Part shown: positions 29,718-38,740 of the stretch, piece by piece | Position numbering within the stretch: the first letter of the stretch is position 1 | Layout: the number at the start of each line of letters is the position of its first letter | Assembly: GCA_003193925.1 (NCBI GenBank) | Contig: PSPG01000013.1 | Location: 1-47,040 of the forward strand | Length of the DNA stretch: 47,040 nt | Direction: 5' to 3' | Source of the DNA: Candidatus Thalassarchaeum betae | Lineage (GTDB): Archaea; Thermoplasmatota; Poseidoniia; Poseidoniales; Thalassarchaeaceae | Made by a program: the position numbers and the translations under genes | The notes under the pieces: model-generated | The model's database searches: none | What the model was told of the DNA's origin: nothing | The model's input: only the letters and a program-made list of their open reading frames with translations

Positions 29718-30503
29718 TCAAGAGAGGAAGTCGCCGCATGAGGTGCAGTACGGCGTCCCCGAGTTGTTCAGGGCCCCACAGGAGCCGCAGGAGGCGACAG
29801 AGCGGGCCAAAGACGAGGCGGACGGGGCCGACCACTGAGTGTCAGAGTCGCTTCTCCCGGAGGTCTTCTTGGCTGCCGCCTTTGCTGCTGCCTTGGCAGA
29901 ACGCTTCTCCAAGCGGTGCTGGGCGGATGCGTCCAATCTGCTGTTGATGGAACTGGCCGTTCTGGAGAGGATACCGGTTTCCTTGGGCTTGGCGATGACC
30001 TGCTCATCCACCATCGTGCCCATCCCCGTGACCTGAGTCCTGACCTCCACCTCGGGATCGTCGTCGGGGATCTCCTCCTCGGAGCGCTCGGTGTTCAGGG
30101 CGCCGACGGTTCCAGACTTGAGCGCCTGGGATTCCAACGCCGCCCGCCCGGTCTGCGGCTCGCTGGCCTTCGCCTCGAGACGCTCAATCGCCGCCTCGCC
30201 CTTCTCCCAGAGGCCCCTGTCCTCCTTAGAGTAAGTCTTCGAGAGCTTGCGTATAGCCCTGGAACGGTGAAACTCGTGATCCTTGACCTTTCGGTATCTC
30301 ATGAACATCACAACCCCGATCAGTAGGGCGGCGGAGTGTATCGAGTACCTCAGTGTGTCATCCTGCGAGATGACCTCCTCGAGAGCTGCCGAGCCATAGC
30401 GCAGCGCGACCACGCACATCGTCGGGGCGATGAGGAGTGCTGCGCCGAGCATCGGTGAGCGCTGAGCCATGGAATCGGTCCATTCACCCATCGTTTGAAT
30501 CAT
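29718..30503 (-). CDS. Two-TM protein with C-terminal zinc ribbon
   Basis: A 261-residue protein; starts at the fifth or twelfth codon are also possible. Two hydrophobic segments (LGAALLIAPTMCVVAL and SIHSAALLIGVVMFM) form an N-terminal hairpin in the membrane. A long charged cytoplasmic region includes an Ala/Lys-rich stretch (KRSAKAAAKAAAKKTSG), and the protein ends in a zinc ribbon, CGSCGALNNSGTPYCTSCG. I recognise no family. It precedes dnaJ by 27 bases on the same strand, so a link to protein quality control at the membrane is possible but unproven. Confidence 0.68.
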   Translation of the reverse strand: MIQTMGEWTDSMAQRSPMLGAALLIAPTMCVVALRYGSAALEEVISQDDTLRYSIHSAALLIGVVMFMRYRKVKDHEFHRSRAIRKLSKTYSKEDRGLWEKGEAAIERLEAKASEPQTGRAALESQALKSGTVGALNTERSEEEIPDDDPEVEVRTQVTGMGTMVDEQVIAKPKETGILSRTASSINSRLDASAQHRLEKRSAKAAAKAAAKKTSGRSDSDTQWSAPSASSLARSVASCGSCGALNNSGTPYCTSCGDFLS

Positions 30504-30564: not shown

Positions 30565-31077
30565 ATGGCACCGATGGTCAGCGTGTCCACCGTCGTGCAA
30601 CCGCATGAGGACCCGCAGATGGTCGTAGAGTCAGTCAAGGCCATTTTCCCCGATTGGGTGCCTGATCGCGTACCCGAGAACGCGCCATTCCCCAATGAGA
30701 GGGAGGGCGTCCTGATTACCGGTTCCTCTGAATCGCTGGACACGCTGCTGGAGGCTGCGAGGAGTCAGAGAATCCTCGATACCGCCCTCGATGCTATGAC
30801 GCTGGAGCTAGAGATCGACTCGACGGGATTCTCCCTTTCGAGACAGGCTGCTCTGGCGGGGAAGGCCTCCTTCGTCATCGATGAGAGGCCGATTGGCGGT
30901 GAGATGCGCATCGGCCTGACCGGAGAGGGGCTGGCGGTCTGGCTCGAGCAGCAGACCTGGCACGCCGGTCGCAACTCGGTCCCACGCAGCGTCGGAGACG
31001 AATTGGCGATGTCCGAGGATGGCGAGCCCGTAGAGTGGTTCGACCGCATGGGCAACCGCACAATCGGCGGGGACTAG
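30565..31077 (+). CDS. UPF0201 family protein (predicted RNA-binding)
   Basis: A 170-residue protein; the ATG at 30574 is an equally good start. It matches the archaeal UPF0201/COG1931 pattern: an N-terminal strand VSVSTVVQPHEDPQMVVESV, the central signature RSQRILDTALDAM, and SRQAALAGKASFVIDE with the family's QAA.AGK core, ending near GLAVWLEQQTWH. The function is not established; comparative genomics links the family to RNA metabolism. The stop codon TAG overlaps the stop of the convergent gene in CTAG. Confidence 0.8.
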   Translation: MAPMVSVSTVVQPHEDPQMVVESVKAIFPDWVPDRVPENAPFPNEREGVLITGSSESLDTLLEAARSQRILDTALDAMTLELEIDSTGFSLSRQAALAGKASFVIDERPIGGEMRIGLTGEGLAVWLEQQTWHAGRNSVPRSVGDELAMSEDGEPVEWFDRMGNRTIGGD

Positions 31078-32063
31078 GGCTCGGGTAGGCCCTCTCGGCG
31101 CCATTGCTCGATAATCGGCAGGTCTGCTGGGAGCCATTGCACATCGAGCAACTCGTCTCGCGAGAGCCAACGAGCCGCCTCGTGCTCGGCGAGAGCGAAC
31201 GCCGAGGGATCGATGACTCCGCAGTTCCAGATCTGTAGGCTCACCGACCTGTCATCGTACTCGTAGTCGATGTGGGCGACCTTCTCCTTGGGTGTTGGCG
31301 AGATTCCCAGCTCCTCCTCAAGCTCGCGGAGAAGTGCCGTGGGCGGGTCCTCGTCTGAGTCAATCTTCCCTCCCGGGAACTCCCACCACCCCCCCCAAGC
31401 GTCCTCATTGGGTCTGCGGCAGGACAGAATCCTACCCCTGTCGTCGAACAACAGAGCGCCGACGACCTCATACTTGGGTCTGGTCACAAGACATCTCGCG
31501 ACCCTATGGACCGCCGCTACCTGCTGGTCGAGTAGAATCTCGCTCTCGGGCGGTAGGTGCACGAAAATCGCAGGCAATGCGGGTCCGGTGCTGGCTTGCA
31601 ACTCGTAGAGCGTCCTGTAGATGGTCTCGTTGCACACGTAGCCGCCCGGGTCTTTGCTCCACTGCACATCGGGGTCGTGCTCGAACTCCTCGTCCAGAAC
31701 GTGGATGGAGGCCGTCGTCTCCAGGGCGTCGGGGCCGTAGGCGACGATACTGCCGGACTCTTCCAGTCTTCCAGAGTTGTCTGGCTCGGTCATCGAGTAG
31801 CTGTTGCGAGCTAGCCTCTCGAGACAGATTCCAGTCCTCCTCTGAGCCAATCCGAGGTGGAGTATGCCATCCACCTCGATACCGTCTCTGATTTCAGTAG
31901 CCACAGCGCTTGAGCCGGCCTCGTCCACGCTAAGCATCCGTGTCACTACATCAAGGCCGTCGATGCCATCCCTCTCGAGACGCTCCAAGACGGATTCTGA
32001 GACGTTCGTCTCTAAATCCGAGAACGGCGGGAATGCCGTGACGAGGATTCTCGGCTCGCTCAC
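31074..32063 (-). CDS. Pyroglutamyl-peptidase I / Nudix hydrolase fusion
   Basis: A 329-residue two-domain enzyme with a GTG start at 32063. Residues 1-185 are pyroglutamyl-peptidase I (family C15), which removes N-terminal pyroglutamate. ILVTAFPPFSDLETN is the N-terminal signature, and all three catalytic residues are present at almost canonical numbers: E82 in LERLARN, C144 in GGYVCNE and H169 in IFVHLPP. Residues 198-329 are a MutT-like Nudix hydrolase with FPGGKIDSDEDPPTALLREL followed by EEELGI, a complete Nudix box (G232, E238, R246, E247, E250, E251, G253). The open frame extends upstream but that part is antisense to the next gene and low in quality. I know of no established pairing of these activities. 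Either domain could act on products of protein turnover or damaged nucleotides. Confidence 0.88.
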   Translation of the reverse strand: MSEPRILVTAFPPFSDLETNVSESVLERLERDGIDGLDVVTRMLSVDEAGSSAVATEIRDGIEVDGILHLGLAQRRTGICLERLARNSYSMTEPDNSGRLEESGSIVAYGPDALETTASIHVLDEEFEHDPDVQWSKDPGGYVCNETIYRTLYELQASTGPALPAIFVHLPPESEILLDQQVAAVHRVARCLVTRPKYEVVGALLFDDRGRILSCRRPNEDAWGGWWEFPGGKIDSDEDPPTALLRELEEELGISPTPKEKVAHIDYEYDDRSVSLQIWNCGVIDPSAFALAEHEAARWLSRDELLDVQWLPADLPIIEQWRREGLPEP

Positions 32064-32151: not shown

Positions 32152-32484
32152 ATGGCCGAGGAGTACGTGGTGAGTGTCGTGCCCGACGAGGGGCCCGAAG
32201 AGGCCAGTACCCTAGGCGTTGTCGGCGTCATCTGGAACGAGTTGAGCGGGGGAATCGGTCCATGGGGGACTCTGCGTCCACTAGTGGCTCTGGCCCTCTC
32301 ACTAGTCCCGTTCCTGTATCTCGGACAGCACTTCAACCGGCAGCACGGCAAGGGATTCGGTTGGTTCGTCATCCAACTGCCGCTGATTCTGTCCGTTGTG
32401 CTCTGGCCCGTCCTCTTCATCTGGTCGATAGCGGATGCCTGGTGGGTCTCCAGCGGCATCGTCGCTCGCGCCCAGTCAGCCTAA
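32152..32484 (+). CDS. Small two-TM membrane protein
   Basis: A 110-residue protein from the ATG at 32152 (MAEEYVVSVVPDEG). An acidic N-terminus is followed by two TM helices, LVALALSLVPFLYLGQ and FVIQLPLILSVVLWPVLFIW, with a short basic loop (HFNRQHGKGFG). The open frame begins about 290 bases upstream, but that part is the antisense of the pyroglutamyl-peptidase domain, so only the hydrophobic portion is taken as real. Family and function are not recognised. Confidence 0.65.
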   Translation: MAEEYVVSVVPDEGPEEASTLGVVGVIWNELSGGIGPWGTLRPLVALALSLVPFLYLGQHFNRQHGKGFGWFVIQLPLILSVVLWPVLFIWSIADAWWVSSGIVARAQSA

Positions 32485-33019: not shown

Positions 33020-36000
33020 TTACGACGTCGTCCGGTCGTCGTACCTGATGGGCGAGCCGCTGTTGCCGCGGACGCCGTCGAGCATGTCATCCTCAATCTC
33101 GAAGAAGTCGTTCAGCCAGTCACCGTCGGTGTCCCAGTTGGTCGGGTCGGTGCCGTCGGCGATCTGATCCCCGTCTATGTCAATCTGCCACCATCCGTAG
33201 ACGTACTCGCCCAAGCCGGTGTTCGGCAGGTGGTACTGGTCGCCGGCGAACCTGTGGTACTCGTCGGTCCAAGCGCCGTTCACCAGGACCTCGTCGTCGC
33301 TGGTGTCGATGTCCTCGTAGTCGCCGTCGTTGTCGTTGACTATCAGGGCATAGAGCATGTCGGCGTTGTTCGCCCTGTACATGCGGAAGTAGTTGGAACT
33401 GAGCGCCGCACTGCCCGAGCAGGTCCCCAACAGTGACTCGCGCAACTGCCACCACTCATGGACGATGCTGCCCGAGCAGTCGTAGAGGTTTGCCTGCCTG
33501 ACCAGCGTCGGGGATGCCAGGGAGGCGTTGACAAGGCCGTAGTACTCCTGGAAGTTGTTGTACGGGACGTAGATGCAACTGCCGCTGGAGCAGTCCCAGC
33601 CGCCGTCGTTATCGGCGTCTTGGCCGGCATCAGACGGGTCGGTGGCGTCGTGGGTGAACCACACCCAGTCCAACTCGGGCCTCGCTATGTTGACACCGGA
33701 GATGTTGACTGGTTTCCAGTTGGTCGCGGTGATCTGCTGCCACACGACTGAGATCTTGAGGTAGGACGACCAGTTGTCGTTAGCCTCGTTCCATCCCCTG
33801 TAGTACTCGTAGAAGTCGGGCATCATGTCGCCGTCGCTGTCGTTGTCCAGCGGGTTGGTGCCATACTTGAACACCTCACGACCGTCCGAGAGGTTAGTGT
33901 CCTGGACGTAGCCGATCACAGCACCGCTCTGCATGATTGGATTCATCACCATCGAATCGTCATCGGAATCGGGATCGAGCGGGAGCGTGCCGTTCTCATA
34001 CTCCATCAGATTGGTGAAGTACAGTTCGAGGAAGCCCTGTCCGATCTGCTGGTCTACCGCTGCGGGCGTGAACTGCCTGTCCTCCCAAGTTCCCTGCTCG
34101 GCTGGAACGTCGCCCCAGTTCCTGTCGTACCAGCCGTCGGCGTCGGGGTCATAGGCGACGTCGAGGGGGTTGATCGGGTTCATCGACCAGCGGTACGCGT
34201 TGACGGGCAGGAACTCGCCGTAGATGGAATAGCAGAACTCCCAGCCGTCGGGTATCCCGTCCCTGTCGGAGTCACTATCTGTCGGGTCGCTGACCCCGGC
34301 CAAACTGTAGTTGAACGTGTCGGCATCGATCTCGTTGATCAGCCCGGCACGTTCGGCGGATACGAGGCTCTTGGTGGAGAACAGGACGTACAACTGGCCG
34401 AAGGCGGCCTCGTACGTCATTCCGTTCTCTTCGATCTGCGCCGTGACAGCATCAGCACCATACGAGACCAAGCCGGTGCCGTTCGGGATGGTGTCAATGG
34501 CTGAACGCTTGCCGTAGACCCTCGCGTCGTACTCGGCGAGGTTGTCGTAGGATTCGGAGTCGGAGATGTGGCCGTCGTTGTTGCAGTCGAACGAGTCGTC
34601 GTCTGAGTCCGTGTGGATGTCGTTGTCGGTCAGGAGATTCATCTCCCAGATGTTCTCCTCGAGATTCCACTCTGTGAACCAGTACTCGTAGCCGTCGCTC
34701 ATGCCGTCCCTGTCGGTGTCCTCGGAATTCGGATCCGATGCCCCGAGCAGCGCTGAGATGACAGGTTTGGCAGGCATTCCCTGCTGCCACTCCTGAAACT
34801 GGGCGATGGCCAGCTGAGCCCTACCCTCCTTGTTGAACAGAATCCTGTAGACCCTGTTCACCGACTCATCGGGGTCCAGTTGCTCGGCCTCCTCCCACAT
34901 GCGCGGCGCATCGGGCGGAGACAGCCCTCCGTTCGCCGGGTTGTTCAGCGTCAGATTGAGCTCGACGAGGTCGGTGATGCCGTCGCGGTCTGAGTCGTAG
35001 TTGCCGTCGCCCGCGACGAGAGGGTTGAGTGTCCAGACCTTGTCAGTCGAGTTCCAGCGCGTGAATATCAGCTCAATGCCGTCGAGCAGGCCGTCGCCAT
35101 CGGTATCGGGGTCGTTGGGGTCAGCGGTCCTTCCGCTCTTGTTGACCTGCTCGTCTGACAGGAACATACCGAAGGAGGCGGCGGACTCGGCTGAGAGCCA
35201 GGGCGATGCCAGCAGTTCGCCACCGACGCTGAGCAGGTAGAACTGCGGCACGGTGATCAGTTCGTCGGTCTCGCTGAGGTTGCCGTCGATGACGTTGTAC
35301 TCCTCCCAGTTGTTCATCCCGTCGCCGTCTGGGTCGCCGAGTCGGTCCCTCTCGTCGACGGGATTGAGGGTCCACTGCTGGTCGAACAGGCTCCATCTGG
35401 CGTAGTAGAACTCCCATCCGTCTGGCATCCCGTCGCGGTCGGAGTCGGCGCTCAACGGGTTGGCGGCACCGACATCCCGAGGCGTCGTCCCGTTGACTAG
35501 GCTGCGGTATGCGGGGCTGGTGAAGTGGCCGAACGAGTCGTCCGCGGAGTCGAGCCAGGTCTCGTTCCACAACTGGGTGGTGAAGTTCTCCGGGTAAGCC
35601 ATGCCCGAGGCGGACTGGTCGCCGTACAGTATCTCCGACTTGAGGTGGTACTCGAGCCAGTTGACCAGTCTCTCCTCAAGGTCGAGCACCCCATCGTGGT
35701 TGATGTCGAAGCCATCGCCGTCGGGGTTGTTGAGGTAGTCTGATCCGTTGAGTGGGTTGATTCCCGCGTTGTCCCTGTTCCAAGTGCAGGTGTAACGGGC
35801 CTCCCAGCCGTCGGGCAGGGAGTCGCCGTCGGAATCGATGTTATTGGGGTCGGTCTTGGTCCAATTGGTCGCAGCCTCGGCGGTCTCCCCGTGCGTCGGT
35901 AGGCCCTCGCGCAGGACTGTCTCGAGCAGGTTGCCCCACATATACTCACACAGATTGCTGAGTCCGTCGCCATCGGCGTCCTCATCCTTGTCCGTCGGGT

Positions 36001-38740
36001 CCCTAGGGTCCAGCGTCCAGAGATTCCCGCCGTTGTAGGCATCGCCGATCCACCTGCGGTGCTCCATCTCCCAGCCGTCGGGCATCCCGTCGCCATCGGT
36101 ATCCGGGTTGGTGGGGTCGGTCGGACCGTCAGTGCCCCCGCCCGCGCCCGAGCCCAGCCACCCCTCGAGGTGGACCTGCTCGGCAAGCCTGCCAGTCTCC
36201 TCGTCGCAGATGTACTCGTGATTGAGGTAATGGCAGTCGAAGTTAGTCGAGTCGGCGAACCAGCCCCAGTACTCCTCGCCATCGGTGAGTCCATCGTCGT
36301 CCGAGTCAATGTCCCTCGGGTCGGTGCCGTTGAATCCGCCCGAGGTCGTGGATACGAACCTGTACTCGTCCAAGTTAGTCCAGTCTCTGTCGAACTCGAA
36401 GCCGTCGGAGGAGGTGAAATGGACGCCGTCTGCGTCGGCGTCGCGATAACGGTCGTGGGGATCAGTCGGGTCGAGGCCGTAGATGAACTCCCAGCCATCG
36501 GGCATACCGTCGAGGTCCGAGTCGCTGGACGTCGGATCGATCGGCATGATGTTCATATATCGGCCCGGTGAGATGCCTGCGAATACCCACAGATCCCCGG
36601 CGTGCTCCAGAGTGGTCAGGGAGGTGACCAAACCGGGGATCCTAGTAAGGTTGAGGTAAATGCCTAGGACGCCCGAATGGCCGCCTTCGAGGGCCCATGT
36701 CCCGTCTCTGGAGCCGATGACCACCATGCCGTTCATGGGCAGCACCGAGCGAACGTCGTTGGCGCCCTTGGCCCATCTGTCGATGTTGTACATCCTCTCG
36801 GAGTCGAAGGCCGTGTAAGGCATCTGAATCAGGAGGTCTAAGTCGAGCAGTTGCAGGCCTCCGGCGGTGCCTACCCAGATTCCAGTGACCTCCTCGACGC
36901 CGCCGACGGCGTCCAAGGGGCCGGCTAGTACCAGCGCGTTGACCACGGCGGACTTGGAGACGTCCAGCAGGTCCGCCCGCTGGACGAAATCCTCCGCGTT
37001 CTCGCGGTCAAAGACCCACCATGGGTCGCCGGCGGAGGCCGAACCGTCGGTGGTGTTCCAAGCGATGAGCCCGGCATCGGTCCCAACCAAGAGCAGTGGG
37101 CCTCGTCCCTCCATCGGCACATGCAAGGCCGTGTTGACCTCGGTGTTGGAGCCTGACAGCGTGTCGGCCATCGCGTCGTTGTACTCGGGCTCGCCGACCA
37201 GAGCGTCCTCGTCCTCGCCCTGATCCATCACAGTGACGGTCCAAACGGCAGAGTTCTGGCCGAACAGGATCAGGTCGAGGTCGCCACTGCCCGTCTGGAG
37301 GGCGAAGATGTTCTTGACGGGCCCGATGTCAGAGTGAGACATGGAGTCCATCACGGGCAGTCCGCTGTCGAGCGTGATGCAGTGCAATCCGAGGTTGGAG
37401 CCGATCAGCAGGAAGTCCGAGTCACCAGGGGACCATCGCATCATGGTGTACATCTCCATCCCCGAGGGCAATCCGTGCAGCGATGCGGAGCCCTCGAACG
37501 GGTCGACGGCGGAGATTCCGTATCTCGAGCCGATTAGCAGCCTGTCCCTCGCAGAGTCGGACAGCACGGTGTGGACCGCCCCGTCCACGAGCCCCGGGCT
37601 CGTGCCTTGGTCGAAGGAAATCACCCCCCCCTCGGAGTCCGAGGACGAAGTGCCTCTGAGACCAGGGGTGACCCAAGCCCCGTCGTCGAAGTGAACCATG
37701 TACTCCTCGTAGTTGCTGAAGGCCTCGCCCCAGTGGGCAGTGGAGATGGAGATGTCGGGGATCAGGAAGCCGTCCCTGTCGAGGTCCCATCCGTCCGAGT
37801 CGCTGTCCAGGATGGCGTCGCTGGAGTTCCGTGGGTCCAAGCCGTAGTGGACCTCCCAGCCGTCGGGTATCCCGTCCCCGGGGACGGCGAGTCCGATTGC
37901 AATCACCTCTGACCAGGTGTAGTAGTCCGAGTCTGCCTTGGTGGGGTCGCTCCCGAGCCAGCCGTTGTCTCCGGTTGCCCTCTCGACATCGCTCTGACAA
38001 GCATCTGGGCTAAGCCCAGCGATCTGCCCGGCGCACCAAAGCCCGTCTCTCTCTGTCAGCCAGTCGTCGGAGGTGCCGTACAGGTACTCCTCCGAGTTGG
38101 TGTAACGCTCACCGAGGTCGATGAATCCGTCTCGGTTGACGTCGAAGCCGTCACCGCAGCCGAAGCTGAAGTCCTCGCAGCGGTCGATGTCCTCGGTAGA
38201 GTCAGAGGGATCGAGGGGGTCGAACCACAGGCACTGCCATGCATTGGTTGCGTTCTGGTAGCCCAGTCCCCCCTCGGTGCACATATAGATCTCGTAACCG
38301 TCAGGCAGACCGTCACCGTCGGTGTCGGCATTTCGGGGGTCGAGGTACTCCCGGAGGCCAGAATCGGTCAGATGTGGCGGCTTGCCAGTCAGGGAGAGCC
38401 TGTCGAAGCACACGTCGAGGGTGTAGGGCCAGCAGAACTCGAGGAGGGCGCTGGCGCCGTCGTTGTCGTGATCGGACATGTTGTCGGTCCCGTTGGTGGG
38501 GTCCAAGCCCCTGACGCTGACCACCCCCGTGCTGGTCTCAATCAGTCTGACATCGCCGAATACCGACTCGTGCAAATCGGGTATTCTGTCGCCATCCTCG
38601 TCGGTGACAGGGGGGCCCCCTCTGTCCGCTGTAATCGGATCGGTCGATGAAACGGGTGACTGGGGGCGGGTCTGAGAGACGAAAGCCAAACCTCCGAGGA
38701 GCAGGAGTGTCATGAGTAGCGCTGTCTGCTTGCGACGCAT
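33020..38740 (-). CDS. Giant secreted protein with TSP3-like calcium repeats and a beta-propeller
   Basis: A 1906-residue protein with a signal peptide (MRRKQTALLMTLLLLGGLAF). About fourteen Asp-rich repeats of the thrombospondin type 3 kind are visible, such as DTDGDGLPDGYE, DSDLDGMPDGWEFIYGLDP and NDSDGDMMPDFYEYYRGW; they should bind calcium. They lie on both sides of a repeat-free block (residues about 380-733) with seven blade-like motifs. No TM helix or sorting signal is present at the C-terminus, so the protein is either released or held by calcium or a partner. GAGGT lies 5 bases before the ATG, so this gene probably has a Shine-Dalgarno leader. It is probably adhesive or matrix-forming; the ligand is unknown. 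Confidence 0.88.
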   Translation of the reverse strand: MRRKQTALLMTLLLLGGLAFVSQTRPQSPVSSTDPITADRGGPPVTDEDGDRIPDLHESVFGDVRLIETSTGVVSVRGLDPTNGTDNMSDHDNDGASALLEFCWPYTLDVCFDRLSLTGKPPHLTDSGLREYLDPRNADTDGDGLPDGYEIYMCTEGGLGYQNATNAWQCLWFDPLDPSDSTEDIDRCEDFSFGCGDGFDVNRDGFIDLGERYTNSEEYLYGTSDDWLTERDGLWCAGQIAGLSPDACQSDVERATGDNGWLGSDPTKADSDYYTWSEVIAIGLAVPGDGIPDGWEVHYGLDPRNSSDAILDSDSDGWDLDRDGFLIPDISISTAHWGEAFSNYEEYMVHFDDGAWVTPGLRGTSSSDSEGGVISFDQGTSPGLVDGAVHTVLSDSARDRLLIGSRYGISAVDPFEGSASLHGLPSGMEMYTMMRWSPGDSDFLLIGSNLGLHCITLDSGLPVMDSMSHSDIGPVKNIFALQTGSGDLDLILFGQNSAVWTVTVMDQGEDEDALVGEPEYNDAMADTLSGSNTEVNTALHVPMEGRGPLLLVGTDAGLIAWNTTDGSASAGDPWWVFDRENAEDFVQRADLLDVSKSAVVNALVLAGPLDAVGGVEEVTGIWVGTAGGLQLLDLDLLIQMPYTAFDSERMYNIDRWAKGANDVRSVLPMNGMVVIGSRDGTWALEGGHSGVLGIYLNLTRIPGLVTSLTTLEHAGDLWVFAGISPGRYMNIMPIDPTSSDSDLDGMPDGWEFIYGLDPTDPHDRYRDADADGVHFTSSDGFEFDRDWTNLDEYRFVSTTSGGFNGTDPRDIDSDDDGLTDGEEYWGWFADSTNFDCHYLNHEYICDEETGRLAEQVHLEGWLGSGAGGGTDGPTDPTNPDTDGDGMPDGWEMEHRRWIGDAYNGGNLWTLDPRDPTDKDEDADGDGLSNLCEYMWGNLLETVLREGLPTHGETAEAATNWTKTDPNNIDSDGDSLPDGWEARYTCTWNRDNAGINPLNGSDYLNNPDGDGFDINHDGVLDLEERLVNWLEYHLKSEILYGDQSASGMAYPENFTTQLWNETWLDSADDSFGHFTSPAYRSLVNGTTPRDVGAANPLSADSDRDGMPDGWEFYYARWSLFDQQWTLNPVDERDRLGDPDGDGMNNWEEYNVIDGNLSETDELITVPQFYLLSVGGELLASPWLSAESAASFGMFLSDEQVNKSGRTADPNDPDTDGDGLLDGIELIFTRWNSTDKVWTLNPLVAGDGNYDSDRDGITDLVELNLTLNNPANGGLSPPDAPRMWEEAEQLDPDESVNRVYRILFNKEGRAQLAIAQFQEWQQGMPAKPVISALLGASDPNSEDTDRDGMSDGYEYWFTEWNLEENIWEMNLLTDNDIHTDSDDDSFDCNNDGHISDSESYDNLAEYDARVYGKRSAIDTIPNGTGLVSYGADAVTAQIEENGMTYEAAFGQLYVLFSTKSLVSAERAGLINEIDADTFNYSLAGVSDPTDSDSDRDGIPDGWEFCYSIYGEFLPVNAYRWSMNPINPLDVAYDPDADGWYDRNWGDVPAEQGTWEDRQFTPAAVDQQIGQGFLELYFTNLMEYENGTLPLDPDSDDDSMVMNPIMQSGAVIGYVQDTNLSDGREVFKYGTNPLDNDSDGDMMPDFYEYYRGWNEANDNWSSYLKISVVWQQITATNWKPVNISGVNIARPELDWVWFTHDATDPSDAGQDADNDGGWDCSSGSCIYVPYNNFQEYYGLVNASLASPTLVRQANLYDCSGSIVHEWWQLRESLLGTCSGSAALSSNYFRMYRANNADMLYALIVNDNDGDYEDIDTSDDEVLVNGAWTDEYHRFAGDQYHLPNTGLGEYVYGWWQIDIDGDQIADGTDPTNWDTDGDWLNDFFEIEDDMLDGVRGNSGSPIRYDDRTTS
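36540..37600 (-). other. Region encoding a probable seven-bladed beta-propeller
   Basis: Within the giant secreted protein, seven similar strand motifs recur about every 45-60 residues: LLIGSRYGISAVD, LLIGSNLGLHCITL, ILFGQNSAVWTVTV, LLVGTDAGLIAWN, IWVGTAGGLQLLD, VVIGSRDGTWALEG and WVFAGISPGRYMNIM. The pattern of a hydrophobic strand, Gly-Ser/Thr turn, then a second strand is that of two-component-regulator-type or PQQ-like propeller blades. Seven copies suggest a closed propeller. Confidence 0.55.

Follow-up and report, generated by a model that had tools for sequence, protein, structure and literature searches.

The C15–Nudix locus

The window analyzed here is a stretch of 47,040 nucleotides, the whole of positions 1 to 47,040 on contig PSPG01000013.1 of Candidatus Thalassarchaeum betae. 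The organism belongs to the Thalassarchaeaceae (MGIIb), one of the lineages of the order Poseidoniales (Marine Group II). On the reverse strand of the window, a family C15 peptidase and a Nudix hydrolase domain share one reading frame, which lies between two constant neighbors:

30565–31077, forward strand: convergent neighbor, weakly similar to PF01877 (RNA_binding; 21.1 bits against a cut-off of 26.9)
31074–32063, reverse strand: C15–Nudix fusion gene, 329 residues in one frame, with a GTG start at 32063 and a stop ending at 31074
31086–31475, reverse strand: MutT/NudG-like Nudix domain, residues 197–326 (PF00293, PF14815; PDB matches)
31302–31370, reverse strand: Nudix box, residues 232–254 (GKIDSDEDPPTALLRELEEELGI); G232, E238, R246, E247, and E250 kept in 98 of 98 fused homologues, E251 in 97 of 98
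31476–32051, reverse strand: C15 (pyroglutamyl-peptidase) domain, residues 5–196, including the C-terminal helix 178–193 (PF01470; structural model and PDB matches)
31557–31559, reverse strand: H169, C15 catalytic histidine, motif FxHxP; 98 of 98 fused homologues
31632–31634, reverse strand: C144, C15 nucleophile, motif CNE; 98 of 98 fused homologues
31818–31820, reverse strand: E82, C15 catalytic glutamate; 98 of 98 fused homologues
32152–32484, forward strand: divergent neighbor, small hydrophobic protein with no Pfam match

The frame of the fusion gene remains open for 139 codons further upstream (468 codons from stop to stop). This extension overlaps the conserved divergent gene at 32152–32484, and the frames of relatives such as L030 and L037 open about two codons before the start of the alignment; therefore, a start near 32063 is sound. 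At its other end, the fusion gene overlaps the convergent gene by 4 bases. The Pfam match to Peptidase_C15 spans residues 5–179 (64.5 bits; cut-off 22.7), and the match to NUDIX (PF00293) spans residues 200–314 (73 bits; cut-off 21.1), with NUDIX_4 also scoring above its cut-off (65.5 against 35 bits). From G232 to G253, the protein reads G-x5-E-x7-R-E-x-x-E-E-x-G, a complete instance of the GX5EX7REUXEEXGU consensus. The original prediction had placed E82, C144, H169, and this box in a single frame of 329 residues, and we recovered each of these elements under the same numbering.

Two genes further out are also conserved. The reverse-strand gene at 33020–38740 encodes a protein of 1906 residues, likely secreted, that is rich in DxDxDG-type (thrombospondin type 3-like) repeats, and in family f1 relatives it likewise adjoins this locus. 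On the other side, the product of the reverse-strand gene at 29718–30503 is conserved, contains hydrophobic segments, and ends in a zinc-ribbon-like CxxC...CxxC tail; it has no Pfam match. In the relatives checked, this gene is flanked by the PF01877-like gene and dnaJ.

Conservation of the two active sites

A search of 318 Poseidoniales genomes returned full-length matches to the fusion in both families of the order (f1 and f2), with nearly all genera represented. The conserved fusion for which the original prediction proposed a search of archaeal genomes therefore exists, as the same fused gene in the same neighborhood in both families. Conservation was evaluated in 98 sequences, namely the window protein and 97 homologues covering both domains, which come from at least 20 genera plus a UBA106 record and share from 78% down to 29% identity with the window protein. 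All 98 share E82, C144, H169, N20, G71, D95, N96, S136, G140, N145, E146, F167, and P171 in the C15 half. They also share R217, W227, E228, G231, G232, E238, R246, E247, and E250 in the Nudix half, where E251 is kept in 97. The two phenylalanines of the C15 pocket are also maintained: position 11 is F or Y in all 91 sequences with a residue there, and position 14 is F in 93 and Y in 1, with gaps in 4. These patterns indicate that both active sites are under selection, and the earlier claim that one protein carries two intact sites was borne out across the order. The mean pairwise identities of the two halves (38% and 40%) show that they drift at a similar average rate, and 82 of the 98 have a span of exactly 30 residues from P171 through V200, both included.

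Could the fusion nevertheless be an accident of assembly? The original prediction held that close relatives with two separate genes, divided by a stop between residues 185 and 198, would point to an assembly artefact or a recent accident; none of the 97 two-domain homologues has such a stop. With the same frame at 97 other loci in both families, in independent metagenome-assembled genomes that include the single-contig genome G035, an assembly or annotation artefact joining two genes has a negligible chance, and a recent accident is ruled out.

A few loci showed apparent interruptions. The homologue with 78% identity, from another Candidatus Thalassarchaeum betae sequence (L010:3992-4984, equivalent to region G278:C8:7487-8470), is interrupted within its Nudix half by an in-frame TAA near residue 266, past which the conserved sequence continues; it is either a sequencing error or a very recent loss. 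The internal TGA stops in G175, G180, G181, and G182 proved to be ordinary termination codons located where the match ends. The split genes in G213 and G204 were due to a run of N in the scaffold and a contig break, respectively.

Predicted structure

AlphaFold2 predicted the window protein with a mean pLDDT of 96.6 and a pTM of 0.89, and a distant member from family 2 (32% identity) with values of 95.3 and 0.89. These models suggest that the two halves are held in a fixed, compact arrangement. The C15 half of the model matched pyrrolidone-carboxyl peptidases in the PDB (Z about 27, rmsd 2.1 over ~190 residues), and the Nudix half matched MutT, MutT2, RppH, and CTP pyrophosphohydrolases at Z scores of 17–20. 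Among the PDB matches listed, none covers both domains.

Identity of the C15 half

Is the C15 half a true pyroglutamyl-peptidase I? Its Pfam score, its Glu-Cys-His residues, and its fold place it in family C15. Furthermore, it resembles the pyroglutamyl-peptidase I enzymes of Thermus (2ebj), Fervidobacterium (6ltq), and Pyrococcus (1iof) in fold (Z about 26–27), in the E/C/H triad, in the pocket phenylalanines, and in the DN-G and CN motifs. By its catalytic residues, its F11/F14 aromatic pair, and its predicted fold, it thus fits the pyroglutamyl peptidases. On the other hand, the known enzymes are single-domain proteins, whereas the fusion protein continues into the Nudix domain, and the C15 half has a glutamate (E146) after the CN motif and scores far below the NCBIfam cut-offs for pyroglutamyl-peptidase I (TIGR00504, PRK13197, and others; 69.6 against 201.75 and 78 against 199 bits). 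Because these cut-offs are missed, we file it as family C15 and not as a proven pyroglutamyl-peptidase I.

E146 (31626–31628), adjacent to the nucleophile, and R99 (31767–31769) are invariant or nearly so in the C15 proteins of Poseidoniales, fused or not. Both are rare at these columns in eleven other C15 enzymes of Thermoplasmatota, among which L076 has E at the E146 column. Since they are absent from most of these other enzymes, the specificity of the Poseidoniales C15 may have shifted, with E146 and R99 as its possible marks. They also occur in the descendants that have only C15; therefore, they are traits of the lineage and not of the partnership with Nudix.

The fate of the putative product is also of interest. 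None of 96 sampled Poseidoniales genomes encodes PxpA (PF03746), and a single one (G170) has the OplAH-type hydantoinase-B domain (PF02538), although C15 peptidases are nearly order-wide. Consequently, free pyroglutamate would be left without a known route to glutamate.

Identity of the Nudix half

The Nudix half resembles NudG and MutT, but it falls below the NCBIfam equivalog cut-offs for both NudG (79.9 against 156 bits) and MutT (71.9 against 97.9 and 74.7 against 148 bits). Even so, it is by far the highest-scoring of the seven Nudix domains of the genome on the MutT and NudG models (74.7 and 79.9, against 47.4 and 26.6 or less for the others). The best NCBIfam model was PRK08999 (103.7 bits; cut-off 245), of which only positions 7–127 of 315 were matched. 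PRK08999-type proteins resemble the fusion in that a MutT-like domain is joined to an unrelated enzyme. Their partner, which we take to be a C-terminal thiamine-phosphate-synthase-like domain, differs from C15, and the match is confined to the Nudix part of the window protein.

A profile built from the fused Nudix domains scored 123 bits with a Butyrivibrio (d)NTP pyrophosphohydrolase, 118 bits with E. coli NudG, and 80 bits with MutT, and on these comparisons NudG-type enzymes are the closest named relatives. E. coli NudG (2rrk), MutT, and M. smegmatis MutT2 share with the Nudix half a complete Nudix box, a fold at Z 17–20, and the residues R217, E228, F229, and K233, along with D314 (an aspartate as in NudG). 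They differ in being stand-alone proteins of ~130 residues. Residue 314, which is D in 93 and N in 3 of the 98 sequences, aligns with an aspartate of NudG. It presumably corresponds to N119, the base-recognition position of MutT. NudG has been reported mainly as a 5-hydroxy-CTP diphosphatase (PMC7593582). By inference from these relatives, the Nudix half would clean or trim nucleoside triphosphates.

Origin and losses of the fusion

Wherever the locus was examined, it had the same order: the small hydrophobic-protein gene, the fusion gene, and the convergent gene weakly like PF01877. C15 stands alone at this locus, at ~200–220 codons and with the Nudix part cleanly gone, in part of g9 (G258, G259, and others), in part of g11 (G304, G307, G310, and others), and in G311, where the Nudix part was deleted and not split off. 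The C15 tree places these C15-only proteins inside the diversity of the fused ones, with the catalytic triad intact. The Nudix half has therefore been lost at least twice with C15 retained, and C15 without Nudix was seen several times at this locus, whereas Nudix without C15 was never seen there. In genus g7 and in other members of g11, the whole fusion gene is missing and the two neighbors lie ~80–130 bases apart.

Beyond the order, no C15 was found in those members of f3, the other family of Poseidoniia, that were sampled. Stand-alone C15 genes are present in the other Thermoplasmatota sampled, but the fusion was not found in that sample, and the three C15 frames there that exceed 320 codons (G323, G347, G381) contain no Nudix domain. 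Plasmid, phage, and viral collections yielded single-domain relatives only and no fusion. Because the fusion occurs in both families at one locus, C15-only proteins nest among fused ones, and the other Thermoplasmatota sampled are unfused, the fusion predates the split of the families. This distribution of sequences indicates that the fusion is ancestral to Poseidoniales, that it arose once, and that it was later trimmed or lost; the claim of a single origin is bounded by the scan outside Thermoplasmatota, where genome contigs were scanned with narrow patterns only. The fused Nudix domains group together with no stand-alone member inside, with a weak tree support of 0.35.

Proposed function

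What might the two domains do together? We consider it probable, from the conserved residues and the structural models, that the protein is a bifunctional enzyme of single origin in which two complete catalytic units run separate reactions and the gain lies in joint production or stability. Here, both activities, their substrates, and the benefit of the fusion are what we infer. The C15 unit would be a cysteine exopeptidase that uses E82, C144, and H169 to release pyroglutamate from peptide N-termini, which would let aminopeptidases go on degrading peptides that are taken up or turned over. The Nudix unit would act as a metal-dependent pyrophosphohydrolase of the MutT/NudG type, converting (d)NTPs, whether normal or damaged and most likely those with pyrimidine or oxidised bases, into (d)NMP and pyrophosphate. 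In the models, the C-terminal helix of C15 runs straight into the first Nudix strand, and the two units would for this reason pack as a single compact, rigid body. Joint production and stability would then be the likely gain, not the channeling of a common metabolite.

To our knowledge, the C15 and Nudix reactions belong to no common pathway. The C15-only descendants keep their active site, as expected if the two activities are separable, and the loss of Nudix while C15 stays argues against an obligatory shared reaction. Furthermore, Poseidoniales reportedly live by proteolysis and depend on an outside supply of amino acids (PMC6461757), a lifestyle that pyroglutamate removal in peptide scavenging would fit. 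The original prediction had raised two links, a shared repair of cyclised glutamine and oxidised nucleotides or a peptide- or amino-acid-linked Nudix substrate. The sequence evidence favors neither, and the damage-repair theme is a possible one.

The fusion might also have brought no gain at all. Two unrelated housekeeping genes could have been joined long ago, with both products working and the junction persisting since it is hard to undo. The losses, being plain deletions of either the Nudix part or the entire gene, agree with such neutrality, as does the finding that no C15–Nudix gene adjacency was seen near ten stand-alone C15 genes of the phylum. However, the near-constant linker over a deep split and the confidently predicted packing between the domains suggest a selected arrangement, and we regard a neutral fusion as rather unlikely.

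Alternatively, the Nudix domain could be mainly a nucleotide-sensing or structural partner that stabilizes or regulates the peptidase, its own turnover being minor. Non-catalytic Nudix domains are known in multidomain proteins (PMC5389931), and both this precedent and the compact predicted body are in line with such a role. So is the pattern of losses, as Nudix was lost alone and C15 was never seen lost alone. A pure sensor would not need the Nudix catalytic residues, yet all of them are invariant, which makes this role unlikely.

Finally, the two domains may share a single substrate or handle consecutive intermediates, such as a nucleotide conjugate of a peptide or amino acid, with an altered C15 specificity. 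In favor are the persistence of the fusion across the order with invariant sites in both halves and a fixed spacing, the lineage-specific E146 and R99, and the lack of a known route for free pyroglutamate. No known metabolite fits, however, and at least two losses removed the Nudix half but left C15; E146 and R99, kept by the C15-only descendants too, are not tied to Nudix. We thus give this reading little credence, and still less to its most specific form, in which a C15 that has left ordinary pyroglutamyl peptides would handle, with Nudix, a nucleotide-linked peptide or amino-acid conjugate; that form is very improbable.

Precedents and significance

Two separate reactions in one protein, the reading we prefer, have a parallel in plants. 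In Physcomitrella and Arabidopsis, Nudix hydrolase 3/dipeptidyl peptidase III combines an exopeptidase and a Nudix domain, as the C15–Nudix fusion does, and dual activity was reported (Karacic et al. 2017, as cited in PMC5389931 and PMC9820243). The plant peptidase is a zinc enzyme of family M49, unrelated to C15, and its Nudix domain is N-terminal, the opposite order, in an independent eukaryotic fusion. Pfam finds only C15 and Nudix families in the window protein, with no M49 zinc-peptidase domain. A literature search for C15 or pyroglutamyl peptidase plus Nudix found no relevant paper, and C15–Nudix goes unmentioned in the main text of a survey of archaeal fusions from 2024 (PMC11237513). 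The original statement that no enzyme with this pairing has been described therefore holds for C15 plus Nudix in the literature searched but not for peptidase–Nudix fusions at large. The combination seems to be undescribed: two known enzyme families in a new partnership that is ancient and spans nearly the whole order. Taken with the plant protein, it suggests that an exopeptidase and a Nudix domain were fused independently on at least two occasions.

No archaea are more abundant in surface seawater than the Poseidoniales, none of which has been cultured (PMC6461757, PMC6864105). Known 5-oxoprolinases are nearly absent from their sampled genomes, and one may ask what becomes of the released pyroglutamate. 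An ancient two-enzyme protein, whose gene occupies one locus in nearly every genus, offers a directly testable piece of the peptide and nucleotide metabolism of Poseidoniales, for which the lineages with only the Nudix half deleted provide natural controls.
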